Source: an uncultured Opitutia bacterium
Lineage (GTDB): Bacteria; Verrucomicrobiota; Verrucomicrobiia; Opitutales; Opitutaceae
Reading direction: 5' to 3'
Length of the DNA stretch: 64,000 nucleotides
NCBI GenBank assembly: GCA_903881475.1
Contig: CAIRTK010000066.1
Coordinates: 62,001-126,000, forward strand
Shown: in pieces, positions 17 through 48,770 of the stretch
Numbering within the stretch: the stretch's first letter is position 1
How the letters are laid out: every line of letters begins with the position of its first letter
Notes under the pieces: model-generated
What the model was told of the DNA's origin: nothing
Database searches by the model: none
What the model saw: the letters and a program-made list of their open reading frames with translations, nothing else
Position numbers and translations under genes: made by a program

Positions 17-3000
17 GTGGCGGCCCTCTCCATCTCGCGCCGCGTGGCTGAGGAGCTCGGTGTGACCTGGGGCCGCGAGGTCGGCTGCAAGATCCGCTTC
101 AGCGACCAGACCACGCCCGCGACCGTCATCAAGTTCCTCACCGACGGCATGCTGCTGGCCGAGGTGCAGGGCGACCCGCTGCTGCGCGACTACGACACGC
201 TGATCATCGACGAAGCGCACGAGCGCTCGCTCAACATCGACTTTCTCCTCGGGCACCTCCGCACGCTGCGGTACAAGCGGCCCGAGCTGAAGATCATCAT
301 CACGTCGGCGACCATCGACACCGAGATGTTCAGCCAGGCGTTCGACGGCGCGCCGGTGCTGAAGGTCGAGGGCCGCACGTACCCCGTCGAGGTCATCTAT
401 GCGCCGCTGGACTCGCTTGGGTCCGACGCCGCGGAAGGCGATGAACGGGAGTCCAAGGCCGAGGCACTGCATTACATCGACGGCGCGGTGGAGGCGGTGG
501 AACGCATCGTCCGCGAGAGCACCGGGGGCGACGTCCTGGTGTTCATGCCGAGCGAGCGCGATATCCGCGAGGCCGCCGACCTGCTCGAATCGAGAATCCA
601 AAATCAAAAATCCAAAATTGAGATCGTGCCGCTGTTCGGCCGGCTCTCCAACGCCGAGCAGCAGCGGGTGTTCTCCCCGACCCAGCGCCGGAAGATCGTC
701 ATCGCGACGAACATCGCGGAAACCTCGCTCACGATCCCCGGCATCCGCTTCGTCGTCGACACCGGCCTGGCCCGGCTCAGCCGCTACTCGCCGCAGGCGC
801 GCACGCGGCGGCTGCCGATCGAGCCGGTGGCGCAGTCGAGCGCCGACCAGCGGAAGGGCCGGTGCGGCCGCGTGGCGGACGGCGTATGCATCCGGCTCTA
901 CTCGGAAAAAGACTATCTCGAGCGGCCGCGGTTCACGCAGCCGGAGATCCAGCGCGCCAACCTTGCGGACGTCATCCTGCGCCTGAAGGCATTCGGCCTG
1001 GGTGACATCGAGCGCTTCCCATTCATCAACATGCCGGCGGCGAAATCCATCCGGGCAGGTTACGGGCTGCTCGAGGAGCTCGGCGCGATCGCGCCGAGCC
1101 GGAGCAGGGAGCAGGGAGAAGGGAGAAGTGACAAAGCAGTATCCGAACCGACCGTTCCTGCTCCTTCCTCCCTGCTCCCTGCTCCGGCGTCAGCGGAGCT
1201 GACGCCCTTGGGCCGCGAACTGGCGCGGCTGCCGGTGGACCCGACCGTGGGGCGGATGATCCTGCAGGCGCGGACGGAGCACGCGCTGCGCGAGGTGCTC
1301 GTCATTGCGTCGGGCCTCTCGATCCAGGATCCGCGCGAGCGGCCGATGGACAAGCAGGCGCAGGCCGATGCGGCGCACCGGCGGTTCGCGCACCCGGACT
1401 CGGATTTCCTCACCCTGCTCAACATCTGGGAGACCTACCACGACTCGTTCGAGACGATGGCGCAGTCGAAGCTCCGCCGGTTCTGCCGCGACCATTTCCT
1501 CAGCTACACCCGGATGCGCGAGTGGCGCGACATCCACGCCCAGCTGCTCGACGTGCTGAAGGAGCGCGACGGCTTCCGCATGACCTCGGCCTTCAGCGGG
1601 CTGAAGCCGGATGACGCGAAGGCCACGGCCTTCGGCACGCCGCCGTACCGGGCGATTCATCGCAGCATCCTGGCCGGGCTGCTGGGCAATATCGCGCACC
1701 GCGACGAGGAGAACGGCGGCTACAAGGCCACGCACGACCGGCGGGTGACCCTCTTCCCGGGCTCGGTGCTGTTTGTGCGGGAGGAACCGAAACGGAAACC
1801 CGCCGCCGCGAAGGCCAGGGAGGACGGCGCGGGCCGCGGCCGCCGGGCCCCGCCGTGGCTCATGGCGGCGGAGATCATGGAGACGACGCGGCTCTACGCC
1901 CGGACGTGTGCGCGGCTCGACCCGGCGTGGGCGCTGGACCTCGGGACGCACCTGGTGCGCGTGGCGCACAGCGAGCCCTTCTGGAACGAGACCGCCGGCC
2001 GCGTGATGGTGAAGCAACGCACGCGGCTCTACGGACTGGAGCTGGAGAGCCGGGCCGTCGGCTACGGCAAAATCAACCCGGCGCATGCGACGGAACTCTT
2101 CATCCGCGAGGGCCTGGTGAACGACACGATCACGTTCCCGCTGGATTTCATCGCACACAACCGCGCGGTGCGGGAGCAGATCGAGGTCATTCTCACGCGC
2201 ACGCGCGACGCGGGTTACCTCAACCTGGACGAGGCGATGTACCGGTTCTACGCGGAGCGCCTGCTGCCGGCTCATCGGGAGGATTCGCCCTACCAGGGAA
2301 TCAGTGCGGCCGCGGAGCTGGTCGACTTGGTGCGCGAGCGCCGCGGCGCGGAGCCCCGGTTCCTGATGATGGAGCCCGACGACCTGCGGGACCCGGACAC
2401 GCTGGCGCATGACGCCGAGGCGTTTCCCGAGGCGCTGCCGCTGCAGAACAGCGCGCTGCCCCTCGCGTATGCCTACAAGCCCGGCCAGACGGATGATGGG
2501 GTTACGCTCGATGTCAGCGTGCACGAGGCGGAGCACCTCACGCCGGCGGCGCTCGACTGGGCGGTGCCGGGTCACCTGGAGGCGAAGGTGGAGCATTACC
2601 TGCGCGCCCTGCCGAAGGAGCTGCGGCGGGCGTTTGTCCCGTTGGCGGAAACGGCCAAGACCCTCGCGGCGCAGGTTGCGGCCCGTGACCGGCTGAGGGA
2701 CCGGCGCGACTCGCTCACGGAGGCGCTGGCGGCGCAGATCGCGGAGCGCTTCCGGGTGGCGGTGGATCCGGCGCAGTGGGCGGACAAGCCGCTGCCGGAG
2801 CATCTGCGCGTGCGCATCCGGGTGGTCGACGCCGACGGTCGCGAGCTGGGGGCGAGCCGCGACCTGGGGGAAATCCGGGCCGCGCTGCACCTGCACGCCC
2901 GCGAGGCCAGTGCGAGCGTGGCCCGGGAGGACCCGGTGGCCTGGCGGACCGCGCGGGCCCGGTGGGAAAAACCGGCGCAGACCTCCTGGACGTTTGGCGA

Positions 3001-3979
3001 CATTCCCGGGCGCGTGCCGGTGACCGAGCAGGCCGGCGTGCCGGTGTTTGCCTTTCCGGGGCTGCGGGCGGGTGAGGGCGGCGTGGAGCTGCGCCTGTAC
3101 AAGACGCCGGAGGAAGCGGCCGCCGCGACGCGGCGCGGACTCGCCGCGCTGCTCGAGCGGCAGCTCGGCCACGACCTCGGCTGGATGGAGCGCGATCTGC
3201 GGGCCCTGCGGGAACTGGGCACGCTGACGGCGACGCTCGCGCCGACCGAGGAGCTGCAGGCCCAGGCGCTGGAGTCGATCCGCCGCTGGGTGTGTGATGC
3301 CGACCGGGTGAAGGTAGGGCGCGTTATCCCTGACGCACCGGTTGGACCCGAGCCCACGGACCAAGCCCGGCGGATCAAGGATAATCCGCCCTACCTGACC
3401 GCCGCGGGCTTTGCCGCGGCGCTCGAGAAAGCCAAGGCCGACCTGCGCGGCCTGGTGCCGCGGCTCACGGACCTGGTGCGCGAAATCCTGACCCTGCGGC
3501 AGGCGCTGCTGGTCCACCCGACGCCGCCGGCGGGAATGGAACGGGACCTCGCGGTGTTGCTGGCGCCCGACTTCCTGCGCACCACGCCCTATGCGCAGCT
3601 GGCGCAGTTTCCGCGCTACCTGAAAGCCATGAAGCTGCGCGCCGATCGCTGGCGGCAGAATCCGGCGAAGGATGCCGAACGGGCGGCGCAGCTCGCGCCC
3701 TACCTGGCGGCGTTGAACCGGATGGGGACTGGGGCCGGAGCCCTGCGCTGGCTCGTCGAGGAATTCCGGGTGAGTCTCTTTGCGCAGGAGCTCGGCACGG
3801 CGGAGCCGGTTTCGGCGGTGAAGCTCGAGCGCGCGTTTGCCGCGGTGCAGACGGGGACAGTTCAGCGCCGGGAGGAAAATCTTCCGGCGCCCAAACCCAT
3901 CGTCGTGGCGCCCGTGCCGCAGAAAAAATCCGCCCCGCTTAAGAACCTCAGCGCGCTCGACAAGCTGTTCCCGCGGTGA
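17..3979 (+). CDS. hrpA: ATP-dependent RNA helicase HrpA (DEAH box), 5' truncated by the window edge
   Basis: DEAH box (IIDEAHERSLN), SATIDTE, HrpA-type C-terminal region. The frame stays open upstream of 17 (TQPRRVAA motif), so the true start lies outside the window. Confidence 0.95.
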   Translation: MAALSISRRVAEELGVTWGREVGCKIRFSDQTTPATVIKFLTDGMLLAEVQGDPLLRDYDTLIIDEAHERSLNIDFLLGHLRTLRYKRPELKIIITSATIDTEMFSQAFDGAPVLKVEGRTYPVEVIYAPLDSLGSDAAEGDERESKAEALHYIDGAVEAVERIVRESTGGDVLVFMPSERDIREAADLLESRIQNQKSKIEIVPLFGRLSNAEQQRVFSPTQRRKIVIATNIAETSLTIPGIRFVVDTGLARLSRYSPQARTRRLPIEPVAQSSADQRKGRCGRVADGVCIRLYSEKDYLERPRFTQPEIQRANLADVILRLKAFGLGDIERFPFINMPAAKSIRAGYGLLEELGAIAPSRSREQGEGRSDKAVSEPTVPAPSSLLPAPASAELTPLGRELARLPVDPTVGRMILQARTEHALREVLVIASGLSIQDPRERPMDKQAQADAAHRRFAHPDSDFLTLLNIWETYHDSFETMAQSKLRRFCRDHFLSYTRMREWRDIHAQLLDVLKERDGFRMTSAFSGLKPDDAKATAFGTPPYRAIHRSILAGLLGNIAHRDEENGGYKATHDRRVTLFPGSVLFVREEPKRKPAAAKAREDGAGRGRRAPPWLMAAEIMETTRLYARTCARLDPAWALDLGTHLVRVAHSEPFWNETAGRVMVKQRTRLYGLELESRAVGYGKINPAHATELFIREGLVNDTITFPLDFIAHNRAVREQIEVILTRTRDAGYLNLDEAMYRFYAERLLPAHREDSPYQGISAAAELVDLVRERRGAEPRFLMMEPDDLRDPDTLAHDAEAFPEALPLQNSALPLAYAYKPGQTDDGVTLDVSVHEAEHLTPAALDWAVPGHLEAKVEHYLRALPKELRRAFVPLAETAKTLAAQVAARDRLRDRRDSLTEALAAQIAERFRVAVDPAQWADKPLPEHLRVRIRVVDADGRELGASRDLGEIRAALHLHAREASASVAREDPVAWRTARARWEKPAQTSWTFGDIPGRVPVTEQAGVPVFAFPGLRAGEGGVELRLYKTPEEAAAATRRGLAALLERQLGHDLGWMERDLRALRELGTLTATLAPTEELQAQALESIRRWVCDADRVKVGRVIPDAPVGPEPTDQARRIKDNPPYLTAAGFAAALEKAKADLRGLVPRLTDLVREILTLRQALLVHPTPPAGMERDLAVLLAPDFLRTTPYAQLAQFPRYLKAMKLRADRWRQNPAKDAERAAQLAPYLAALNRMGTGAGALRWLVEEFRVSLFAQELGTAEPVSAVKLERAFAAVQTGTVQRREENLPAPKPIVVAPVPQKKSAPLKNLSALDKLFPR
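1078..1187. repeat. In-frame inverted-repeat insertion inside hrpA
   Basis: 22-bp perfect palindrome GCTCGGCGCGATCGCGCCGAGC (1078-1099) abutting arms CCGGAGCAGGGAGCAGGGAG (1099-1118) and CTCCCTGCTCCCTGCTCCGG (1168-1187). Confidence 0.9.
3311..3396. repeat. TAGGGCG-family inverted repeat inside hrpA
   Basis: AGGTAGGGCGCGTTATCC ... GGATAATCCGCCCTACCT, 16/18 complementary. Confidence 0.85.
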
Positions 3980-4190: not shown

Positions 4191-4628
4191 TCAGTCGACC
4201 TCGGTGACGTCGTTGGGCAATTCGCCGTGCTCGCCGGTGATCCGGGGAAAATGGGCGGCCAGCAAGGCACCGGCCCGCTCGATGCCATGCACGAGGCCGC
4301 CGGTGAAATCGCCGCGCTTGAAATGGCCGGACATGGCCGCGGTCAATTCCAGCCACAAGGCATCGCCGCATTTTTCGTGCACGGCGGTGTCGCCGATGAC
4401 GGCGAACGTGCGGGAACGCGGGGCGAGAAAAATCAGGATACCATTGCGGTGCCGGGTGCGGGTCAGGCCGAGCCGTTCGAACTGTTTCGTGGCCGCGGCC
4501 ACGGGATCGGCGGCCCGGTGCCGGGCGATCACCACGCGGATCTCCCCCGAGGTGTGCTGCTCCGCGGCCGTGATCGCGGCGACGACGCGCGGATGGTCGA
4601 TCTGGGGAAGGGAAGAAAAGAAGCTCAT
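4191..4628 (-). CDS. TPM domain protein (short form)
   Basis: Start MSFFSSLPQIDHPRVVAAITAAEQHTSGEIRVVIARH; follows a second TPM gene and lemA in the same orientation. Confidence 0.8.
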   Translation of the reverse strand: MSFFSSLPQIDHPRVVAAITAAEQHTSGEIRVVIARHRAADPVAAATKQFERLGLTRTRHRNGILIFLAPRSRTFAVIGDTAVHEKCGDALWLELTAAMSGHFKRGDFTGGLVHGIERAGALLAAHFPRITGEHGELPNDVTEVD

Positions 4629-4632
4629 GGGC

Positions 4633-5520
4633 TTACCAGCTGCCTCCCGCGCCGCCGCCGCCAAAGCTGCCCCCACCGCCGGAAAAACTGCCTCCGCCCC
4701 CGCCTCCGCCGAATGAACTGCCGCCACCCCCGCCAAGGAATCCGCCATAGGTGATGATCCGGCCATTGCGCCCATAGACGGTGCCGCCCTGCCGGCGGCT
4801 CACCGACCAGACGATGAACAGGAGGATCAGCACAAAGATCACGAAGGAAGGAAGGCCGCCGCTGCGCCCGCGCCGGTCCGCCACGGTGTGCCCGGTGCCA
4901 TGGTATTCGCCGCGTGTGGCCGCGATCAGCGCCCGGACGCCGGCCTGCACGCCACTGTTGAAGTCGCCATTGCGGAAACGGGGCGTGATCTCGTTTTCGA
5001 TGATCTGCTTGCACAGCGCGTCAGGCAGCACGCCCTCCAGGCCGTAGCCGACCTGGATATAAAGCTTATGGTCTTCGCTGAAGATGAACAGCACCGCGCC
5101 GTTCTTGGTGCCTTTTTGGCCGACGCCCCAGGCCTGGGCGACCCGCACGGTGTAGTCCTCGATCGAGGAGTCCGACTGCATGTGCGGATAGATCGCCACG
5201 ACGAGCTGGTTCGAGGTGTCGCGCTCGAACTGCGTGAGCGTGGCGTCGAGGGACTGCGCCACGCCGGCCGGGACAAGGCCGGCGTAGTCGTTGAAGTGAT
5301 CGCGGGGCGCCGCCGGGATCACTTCGGCGGCGTGCAAGGTGGAGCCCAGCAATGCGCCGGCCAGGAGGAAGAAACTGTGCCAGCGGGTAGGGCGGGTTAT
5401 CCCTAACCCGCCGGGTTTGGAATGAGGCCGTCCGGCTGAAACAGCCGGATGGCTTTCCTTGAAACGTTCCGCCGAACGCGGCGCGTCAGGGATAACGCGC
5501 CCTACCTTGAGCCGGGTCAC
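4633..5520 (-). CDS. TPM domain protein with Gly-rich C-terminus (YgcG-like)
   Basis: FNDYAGLVPAGVAQSLDATLTQFERDTSNQLVVAIYP...; GGGGGSSFGGGGGGG tail; GTG start overlaps the lemA stop (GTGA). The N-terminus is made of repeat-derived sequence. Confidence 0.85.
   Translation of the reverse strand: MTRLKVGRVIPDAPRSAERFKESHPAVSAGRPHSKPGGLGITRPTRWHSFFLLAGALLGSTLHAAEVIPAAPRDHFNDYAGLVPAGVAQSLDATLTQFERDTSNQLVVAIYPHMQSDSSIEDYTVRVAQAWGVGQKGTKNGAVLFIFSEDHKLYIQVGYGLEGVLPDALCKQIIENEITPRFRNGDFNSGVQAGVRALIAATRGEYHGTGHTVADRRGRSGGLPSFVIFVLILLFIVWSVSRRQGGTVYGRNGRIITYGGFLGGGGGSSFGGGGGGGSFSGGGGSFGGGGAGGSW
5385..5508. repeat. TAGGGCG-family inverted repeat inside the TPM gene 5' end
   Basis: GGGTAGGGCGGGTTATCCCTAACCCGCC / GGCGCGTCAGGGATAACGCGCCCTACCTT. 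Confidence 0.9.
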
Positions 5521-6155
5521 GGTTTCGCGGGCGCGGGCTTGGCGCCGAAGTCGAATTGCACGGTCGGCGGCTTGTCGGCACCGGCGACGGCGGAGAAATA
5601 GGGCCGGGCGGTGTGGCCGAACATGCCGGCGAAGATCACGGCGGGAAATGTTTTCAGCGCGGTGTTGTAGGCCTGAACCGCGTCATTGAACCGTCCGCGC
5701 TCGACCGAGATGCGGTTTTCCGTGCCCTCGAGCTGCGCCTGCAAATCGCGGAAGCCGGCGGTAGCCGTGAGCTGGGGATAATTTTCCGAGACGACGAGCA
5801 GGCGCGAGAGCGCGCCGCCGAGCTGGGCCTGGGCCTGCTCGAACTGGGCCAGCTGGGCCGCGTCGGTGGGGGCGCCCGTGGCGGGCAGCTGCACGCGGCC
5901 GACCGAGGCGCGGGCCGCAGTCACCTCGGTGAGCGTGGACTTCTCGAAGTTGGCGGCGCCGGCGACCGTGTTCACCAGATTCGGGACCAAGTCGGTTCGG
6001 CGCTGATAGACATTCTGCACCTGGGCCCAGGCGGCGTCGGTGCCCTGCTGCAGGGTGACGAGGCGGTTGTAGATGCCGCTGATGGACAGGGCGACGATGA
6101 TCACGAGGACCAGGAGGGCGCCGACGATCGCTAGCAGAATTTTTCCGATGCTCAT
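5517..6155 (-). CDS. lemA: LemA family protein
   Basis: MSIGKILLAIVGALLVLVIIVALSISGIYNRLVTLQQGTDAAWAQVQNVYQRRTDLVPNLVNTV; start placed at 6155. Confidence 0.92.
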   Translation of the reverse strand: MSIGKILLAIVGALLVLVIIVALSISGIYNRLVTLQQGTDAAWAQVQNVYQRRTDLVPNLVNTVAGAANFEKSTLTEVTAARASVGRVQLPATGAPTDAAQLAQFEQAQAQLGGALSRLLVVSENYPQLTATAGFRDLQAQLEGTENRISVERGRFNDAVQAYNTALKTFPAVIFAGMFGHTARPYFSAVAGADKPPTVQFDFGAKPAPAKP

Positions 6156-11057: not shown

Positions 11058-12077
11058 TCACGCGCCCAGCAAACCGGTGCCGACAAACCACGCGTAGGCG
11101 GCGAGCAGCGGCCAGCCCATCCAGCGGGGCAACCCGCCGGCGAACAGCACGCACGCCAGGTGCACGGCCGCGGCGCCGACCAGGATGGCGAGGCCGGTCT
11201 CGAAGAATTTCGGCACGGGGATCGGCTGGATCATGGCGCTGAGTCCCAGGCAGAGCGGGATGCAGATGTGGCCGTCGCCGACCTGCGAGGCGTAGGCGAT
11301 GTCGGCGCGGCGCCTGGCGGCATAATAAAAGGCCAGCAGCGCGTTGGGCACGACCATGAGCCACCCGCTCAGCCAGCCGAGGTTCGAGGCGTTGATGAAA
11401 CCGCCCTTTTGCGCGGAGAGCCAGTCGACCAGCCAGTCGAGGCTCACGTAGATGCCGTAGGCGGCGACCAGGATGATGACCAGGTCGAGGTAGAACATCG
11501 GGCTGAAGGCGCGGCGCTGCCGGACGTTGTGCTTGAGCACGTCGAAGACCTGGAAGCATTGCCAGAAGAGGAACAGCGCGACGAGGACGAGCCCGTCGCG
11601 GCGGTCGAGCCAGCCGTCGGCGCCGAGGGCCCAGGTCGCGCCGGTGAAAAAGACCACGGCGGCGAGCGTGAGGAGCAGCGAGAGGCGGTTGATTTTCTGC
11701 TCGGTCTCGGCGGTGGACGCGCCCTTTTTCCGGGCCCCGCCCTTCTTGGCCTTGGACTCCGTGCGCAGGCTCAGGCCCCAGAACAGGGCGGGCAGGCCGA
11801 GCACCAATGTGAGGTTGGTGACATTGTTGACGAGGCAGTTGGTCAGGACGTCCTGCGCGGGGCCGTGACGGACCGCGATGATCCCGACGAAGATCAGGTT
11901 TCCCAGGCCGGAGCAGTACGGCATCACGATCGTGGCGAGGGCAGTGCCCTCGAGGCCGTGGTCGAGCATCGCCTCCAGCCGCCAGATCATCAGCAGGGAG
12001 GCGGCAAGGAAGAGCCCGATGTAGGTCCAGAGGCTGGTGAGCCCCAACTGGTCGATGGCCTCGGCGAGCGGATTCAC
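11058..12077 (-). CDS. Sodium/calcium exchanger (CaCA) family membrane protein
   Basis: Multiple hydrophobic segments; LVNNVTNLTLVLGLPALFWG alpha-repeat-like motif. Confidence 0.75.
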   Translation of the reverse strand: MNPLAEAIDQLGLTSLWTYIGLFLAASLLMIWRLEAMLDHGLEGTALATIVMPYCSGLGNLIFVGIIAVRHGPAQDVLTNCLVNNVTNLTLVLGLPALFWGLSLRTESKAKKGGARKKGASTAETEQKINRLSLLLTLAAVVFFTGATWALGADGWLDRRDGLVLVALFLFWQCFQVFDVLKHNVRQRRAFSPMFYLDLVIILVAAYGIYVSLDWLVDWLSAQKGGFINASNLGWLSGWLMVVPNALLAFYYAARRRADIAYASQVGDGHICIPLCLGLSAMIQPIPVPKFFETGLAILVGAAAVHLACVLFAGGLPRWMGWPLLAAYAWFVGTGLLGA

Positions 12078-33176: not shown

Positions 33177-33269
33177 GGTGGAACGCATTGCCCTCAACGC
33201 GTTGGGCAGCGCTGCCGGGTTTTGCCGTGGACGGAGCCCAGCAATGCGTTGGGGGCAACGCGTTCCACC
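33177..33269. repeat. GGTGGAACGCATTGCCCTCAACGCGTTGGGC-family inverted repeat
   Basis: GGTGGAACGCATTGCCCTCAACGCGTTGGGC / GCAATGCGTTGGGGGCAACGCGTTCCACC; a single arm recurs near 54395. Confidence 0.88.
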
Positions 33270-34866: not shown

Positions 34867-35007
34867 GTAGGGCGGGATCGCTGATCCCGCCTTTGTGTTT
34901 TCCGATGTGGGACGGGTGCCCTCACCCCGTCATTTGACGGATGCGGGGTGAGGGCACCCCGCCTACATTGGACCCAAGCCAAGGCGGGGTCAGCGACCCC
35001 GCCCTAC
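34867..35007. repeat. Composite nested inverted repeat, copy 1
   Basis: Outer GTAGGGCGGGATCGCTGATCCCGCC / GGCGGGGTCAGCGACCCCGCCCTAC; inner GATGTGGGACGGGTGCCCTCACCCCG / CGGGGTGAGGGCACCCCGCCTACAT. Confidence 0.93.
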
Positions 35008-48576: not shown

Positions 48577-48770
48577 CAAGGGGTAAGTTACAAGTGACAA
48601 GAATTCCGGAGTAGGGCGGGTCTTTGACCCGCTCTGATTGTCATTGCGAGGAAGCCCGACGGGCTGACGTGGCAATCCATCGGCTGTTCAAGCAAGGCGG
48701 GTCAAAGACCCGCCCTACCGCGATCCACGCCAAATTTCCTCTTGTTACTTGATCTTTGTCCCTTGTCACT
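48572..48770. repeat. Triple-nested inverted repeats
   Basis: Outer AGTGACAAGGGGTAAGTTACAAGTGACAAGA / TCTTGTTACTTGATCTTTGTCCCTTGTCACT; middle GTAGGGCGGGTCTTTGACCCGC / GCGGGTCAAAGACCCGCCCTAC; inner ATTGCGAGGAAGCCCGACGGGCTGACGTGGCAAT. Confidence 0.93.

Follow-up and report, generated by a model that had tools for sequence, protein, structure and literature searches.

GTAG-tagged REPINs in frame within hrpA and other genes of an uncultured Opitutaceae bacterium, with other repeat families at the same sites in its relatives

The window analysed here, by which we mean the whole stretch of DNA, is 64,000 nt of the Opitutaceae assembly GCA_903881475.1 (contig CAIRTK010000066.1, positions 62,001-126,000, forward strand). 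The genes and repeats near its beginning are listed below.

17-3979 (+): hrpA, encoding an ATP-dependent RNA helicase (TIGR01967, 1078.7 bits, over the curated cut-off)
595-615 (+): AATCCAA-type heptamer array, a sequence repeat in frame in hrpA, reading QNQKSK
1100-1198 (+): second palindromic insert in hrpA, with GGAGCAG/GGAGAAG heptamers and an inverted copy (GGAGCAG...CTGCTCC)
2269-2293 (-): single family-B REP arm in frame in hrpA, reading AHREDSPY; the sister species G008 has a full family-B REPIN at the same hinge
3313-3395 (+): family-A REPIN in frame in hrpA, read as VGRVIPDAPVGPEPTDQARRIKDNPPY, with a GTAG...CTAC core at 3314-3394 (81 bp)
3314-3339 (+): left REP arm of this REPIN, GTAG plus the imperfect hairpin GGCGCGTTA/TCCC/TGACGCACC
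3369-3394 (-): right REP arm of this REPIN, GGAT stem variant, running from GTAG at 3394
4633-5520 (-): TPM-domain gene (PF04536, 125 bits), whose annotated start GTG 5520 overlaps the lemA stop
5386-5506 (-): family-A REPIN in the lemA-TPM junction, 119-bp core at 5387-5505, whose edge replaces the native TPM ATG
5517-6155 (-): lemA-like gene upstream of the TPM gene, from the ORF list and the sequence

A 26-base string, AAGGTAGGGCGCGTTATCCCTGACGC, lies at 3311-3336 (+) within hrpA, and an exact second copy at 5483-5508 (-). Its main part, GGTAGGGCGCGTTATCCCTGACGC, is exact at 3313-3336 (+) and 5483-5506 (-), two preceding A's extending the identity to 26 nt; a third copy with 3 mismatches was found at 5386-5409 (+), and 100 dinucleotide-preserving shuffles gave 0 matches. 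The string encodes the peptide KVGRVIPDA in both frames, the ORF translations being VKVGRVIPDAPVGPEPT in HrpA (17-3979, +) and LKVGRVIPDAPRSAERF in TPM (4633-5520, -). A sequence-only reading had claimed a repeat common to hrpA and the TPM region, read in the same frame in both, and both points are borne out by the exact identity and the translations. The string noted there is a repeat, but it is only part of a longer element, which is an inverted arm pair at 3314-3394 in HrpA and at 5387-5505 by TPM.

Each arm of this family (family A) consists of GTAG and a 9-bp hairpin with the loop TCCC, and two inverted arms around a spacer make up the REPIN, usually 78 bp in total. In hrpA, the order within 3314-3394 is GTAGGGCGCGTTATCCCTGACGCACC, spacer and inverted GTAGGGCGGATTATCCTTGATCCGCC. 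The hrpA and TPM-side copies fold as single-stranded DNA far better than shuffles (z -3.5 and -6.7). Among 24 arm variants picked by hand, 95.4% of the stem cells were paired and 19 cells had changed on both sides, which was reached by 0 of 500 shuffles; when the partner was slid by one to three columns, pairing dropped to 31-39%. The hallmark of a REPIN is a GTAG (or GTRG) tag with an imperfect palindrome behind it, and family A shows this with GTAG and its covarying 9-bp stem.

The genome containing the window (G000) is a draft of 3.21 Mb in 83 contigs, and the surroundings of all its arm matches were fetched. With at most 2 mismatches there were 89 arm matches genome-wide, and the reversed control gave 1. 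These matches make up about 56 elements, among them 41 clear inverted pairs with exactly 78 bp as the commonest length, a characteristic spacing as in REPINs. About 90% of the elements lie outside genes and 6 were flagged inside genes, so the many dispersed copies are mostly extragenic, as is also usual for REPINs. Genes are not the preferred home of family A: they contain about 10% of the copies although a far larger part of the genome is coding, so most gene insertions have been lost. Selection for lengths that are multiples of three was weighed and dropped, 78 bp being the commonest length between genes as well. The flanks showed a strong preference only for G at -1 and C at +1, and no short direct target duplication, as a classical MITE would leave, was visible in site comparisons with relatives, which offered no close clean empty site. 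Family A is present in 13 of 57 relatives, all 13 in the same bacterial family. Among the matches listed for the exact arm, the record titles name Opitutaceae, Opitutia or Opitutae, and a few give only Verrucomicrobia (unclassified Verrucomicrobia MAGs).

Repeats of other kinds were also noticed. Two more REP families, GTGGAACGCATTGCCC and GTAGGGCGGGATCGCTGATCCCGCC, form inverted pairs in the window at 33178-33268 and 34867-35007, and another inverted GTAGGGCGGG pair lies at 48611-48718. Heptamer arrays of at least 3 units numbered three in the window, two of them in frame inside hrpA (595-615 and 1100-1198). Locus L032 (G000:C49) carries at 2351-2464 and 11909-12027 a repeated palindrome some 115 bp long (GGCCACGAAGAGGCACAAGGG...), which is not a GTAG REP and has dozens of 75-87% matches on both strands in G008.

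The true start of hrpA is upstream of the window, and the DUF3418 match (660-1275) in HrpA spans the REPIN insertion. The element adds about 27 aa in a variable linker of this C-terminal region. In the hrpA orthologues of G002, G004, G005, G006, G010 and G011 there is no insert, and the preceding helix joins the following helix directly. The alignment with E. coli HrpA structures (9gft/9ggr) runs to residue 1091 and resumes at 1126, with the insertion in the unaligned stretch. The earlier proposal that about 30 aa of HrpA are an insertion is thus confirmed by the orthologue alignment, with about 27 aa absent from most orthologues, and the repeat in HrpA is internal and real coding sequence. 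G011 has 41 family-A arm matches, yet its hrpA hinge (L072) is empty, which means that abundance alone does not fill this slot. The insert at 1100-1198 has a stem score of 22, against a control maximum of 9, and at the same hinge G008 has a family-B REPIN. The hrpA gene of G008 (L062, G008:C52) carries three copies of one family-B REPIN in frame, at 2044-2111, 3205-3272 and 4312-4379.

The TPM copy had been taken as a second internal insertion of the same kind, and this could not be upheld: the element lies in the lemA-TPM spacer and has removed the native start codon. At this junction relatives have the lemA stop TAA, about 36 bp, and then ATGCGCTGG opening the TPM signal peptide, and G008 has 35 bp without a repeat. 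In the window the TPM-side element ends CCCTACCCGCTGG, and the ATG used by the orthologues is gone (5380-5390). GTG 5520, overlapping the lemA stop, was the only upstream in-frame start seen, so the peptide match in TPM is a possible N-terminal extension and not an internal insert. The TPM-side element would be translated only if GTG 5520 is used; the TPM gene itself may have come to rely on a GTG start that is coupled to the end of lemA, or may be silenced.

Clear internal gene insertions of family A were found in four genes, hrpA and the three below.

L015: WD40 protein, internal insertion
L053: SNF2 helicase, copy just after the Walker A helix
L019: putative glycosidase, with weak likeness to rhamnosidase

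All four copies have sequence of coding composition to their left and right, and they read VGxVI/V...RRxKDNPPx whichever way the element is oriented. One arm frame begins with TAG and another meets TAA; the sole open frame begins GTA GGG, is open on both strands, and is used by all four. The WD40 insertion is also present in the independent assembly of G008, and G002, G005 and G011 are without it. In G014, a single closed contig, VGRVIPNAP...RRIRDNPPY is read within a 941-codon frame. G011 gave further in-gene candidates; one G014 match and some single arms are doubtful.

The transposase belonging to family A was located by a phmmer scan of loci. L290 and L315 score 83.3 and 87.3 bits against NF047646 (REP-associated tyrosine transposase, RAYT), and with a further score of 91.1 bits all three pass the curated cut-off of 80. 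Both L290 and L315 lie between two inverted family-A arms and have the HUH motif MPDHLH. The RAYT of G014 (G014:C1:5903676-5904110) is intact, with inverted family-A arms at 5903630 and 5904168. In G000 the arm-flanked structure is also present (C69:451-981), with its gene (L044, G000:C69:509-942) split between two frames, so this RAYT is probably dead. A cognate RAYT flanked by the same REPs, as expected for a REPIN, is therefore intact in three relatives (G014, L290 and L315) and frameshifted in G000, where family A may have stopped moving unless a different RAYT assists. In the bacterial family, most close RAYTs lie between REPs of their own class, GTAG or GTGG. The own genome thus has a frameshifted RAYT for the GTAG family that occupies hrpA and an intact one for the GTGG family (L342, G000:C1:14185-14598), which is surrounded by GTGGAACGCGTTGCCC. 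The Y1_Tnp genes L059 and L060 of the own genome were rejected as the cognate transposase, for they have no family-A flanks.

We consider, with a probability of about 0.9, that the hrpA repeat is a REPIN, that is, two inverted GTAG-tagged REP hairpins forming the non-autonomous partner of an HUH/Y1 RAYT, which spread as single-stranded DNA and whose in-gene copies are tolerated passengers. The autonomous form (REPtron) would be the RAYT gene between the same two arms, and the 78-bp REPIN resembles a REPtron with the gene deleted. The RAYT would spread copies as single-stranded DNA, and survivors would remain mainly between genes. Such movement has been established for the REPIN/RAYT system (PMC2817692, PMC3116915, PMC8266576). 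A copy falling in a gene could survive only with its one open frame (GTA GGG CGN ...), a net length divisible by three and a flexible hinge as its place; the other two frames would be stopped by TAG or TAA in the arm. The hrpA insert is then most likely a tolerated, nearly neutral passenger without a selected function, and it would be translated as part of HrpA.

That both proteins stay open through the repeat would also suit a conserved protein motif or a chance coincidence of codons, with no mobile element involved. This idea is refuted by the empty sites in hrpA and TPM orthologues and by the intergenic copies, most of the about 56 being outside genes, and the stem covariation is at the DNA level; we give it practically no weight. 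It is hardly more credible that collapsed repeats were misplaced into hrpA during assembly. The genome is a draft of 83 contigs, but the copy in hrpA departs from the consensus in length (81 bp) and by substitutions of its own (TGACGCACC), the WD40 insertion recurs in an independent assembly (G008), and the closed genome of G014 has an in-gene copy too. An added peptide that is itself selected, for example for linker length, regulation or a nucleic-acid-binding patch, is unlikely, though a step above these two. In its favour, the same hinges are repeatedly filled by different repeats in different species, and Di Nocera et al. (PMC3733652) speculated on altered repair proteins. Against it, one slot is filled by unrelated sequences and left empty in many orthologues, the copies are mostly intergenic, and the residues follow the DNA hairpin. 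The passenger REPIN remains our reading of the hrpA insert.

The sites filled by family A often carry another repeat in other species. At the HrpA hinge, other palindromes are GTAGGGCGAATCCTCCGGATGAGCC (family B) in G008, GTAGGGACGCGTGTCCCC in G031 and GTAGCGCAGGCGTCCC in G009. The WD40 site has GTAGCGCAGGCG in G009, GTAGCCGGGGTC in G014 and heptamer arrays in G010 and G012, the SNF2 site has GTTGAAAG arms in five species, and the glycosidase site has the GTGG family (D) in G008, G011, G005 and G009. For these four proteins, a strong inverted repeat was present in 15 of 52 lineage-specific inserts of at least 12 aa and in 6 of 1040 control windows; the p value of 8e-17 is indicative only, the four proteins having been chosen for such an insert. 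From these alignments, the comparison suggests that REPIN slots in proteins outlive any one repeat. Heptamer palindromes (GTTGAAA, GAGGTCA, AATCCAA) also occupy SNF2 and WD40 slots elsewhere, as a second class of translated palindrome without GTAG.

Comparison with 1.17 Mb of G008 located the orthologous place for 15 of 41 family-A sites, one of which was not comparable. At the other 14, G008 had the same family at 4, another REP family (B, D, F or a mixture) at 6, another palindrome at 2 and no repeat at 2; HrpA and the glycosidase are the two in-gene sites among the 6. It is possible, at somewhat under even odds, that a site taken by one REPIN persists as a slot in which a REPIN of another family succeeds it at the very same base pair, also in coding genes and with the frame kept; the RAYT might cut at the GTAG end that the families have in common, or nesting might be followed by loss. 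At L032:11076, with family A in G000 and family B in G008, both edges match to the base. For a random, approximately intergenic G008 point, the chance of a non-A REP element within 50 bp is about 0.035, which by our own arithmetic puts 6 or more of 14 at about 5e-6; this null is rough, given the preference of REPs for gene ends and the position of two of the six sites inside genes. Repeated independent insertion into a few tolerant or structurally attractive spots, without replacement, has about an even chance. All families have GTAG...CTAC ends and may share a target preference, REPs favour gene 3' ends (PMC3733652), and at two of the sites, which are hinges in proteins, few positions are tolerated. 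The excess of 6 of 14 over the random expectation and the base-exact edges at L032:11076 speak against it, as do flanks that strongly prefer only G at -1 and C at +1. If replacement is true, protein hinges would carry a lineage-long, exchangeable mobile insert. Since sister species have unrelated families at one and the same hinge or intergenic base, the choice or reuse of sites by REPINs becomes open to test, as does the supply of new protein linkers by mobile DNA.

Exchange of one REP family for another at the same dispersed site was not found in the open literature, and the trading of families at one site looks new. The nearest ideas are a remark that recB of two Xanthomonas has different REPs at about the same site (PMC3733652), and the REP orthoswitch (Nunvar 2013, PMC3686654), in which likewise one REP class supplants another. 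In the orthoswitch, however, new REPs flank an orthologous RAYT gene and the old dispersed copies decay, with no site-for-site exchange at dispersed loci.

The element also shares with Rickettsia palindromic elements (RPE) a palindromic structure and in-frame insertion in unrelated, functional protein genes. It is different in sequence, phylum and lifestyle: the intragenic R. conorii repeats RPE-4 and RPE-6 are of the CGTC class and not associated with transposase genes (PMC3733652), whereas family A is of the GTAG class, and so works like an RPE without being one. The parallel drawn before this analysis holds for the mode of insertion and the different sequence, and not as a new parallel, for it is a GTAG REPIN of an in-ORF kind published in 2013 for Opitutus terrae. 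With the REPIN/RAYT system (Nunvar 2010, PMC2817692; Bertels and Rainey 2011, PMC3116915) family A shares the GTAG tag, the inverted REP pair, the REP-flanked HUH/Y1 transposase and MITE-like dispersal. The described REPIN populations are extragenic, whereas about 10% of the copies here lie inside genes and would be translated in one fixed frame.

Translated in-gene GTAG REPINs are an already known kind. Di Nocera et al. (2013, PMC3733652) reported GTAG REPs inside ORFs, the highest number being in Opitutus terrae of the same family, with dimers encoding 20-30 aa and RNA helicases among the targets, and considered the NH2-terminal cases perhaps misannotation. The GTAG hairpins, inverted dimers, in-frame inserts, helicase targets and bacterial family are the same as here, and the classes GTAG-17/19/20 of that survey may include the family-A sequence. 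The survey made no general empty-site comparison and did not trace a single in-gene site through many relatives. Translated REPINs, so far catalogued in one strain, are now seen as a process of the whole family, with its empty and filled sites and the cognate transposase.
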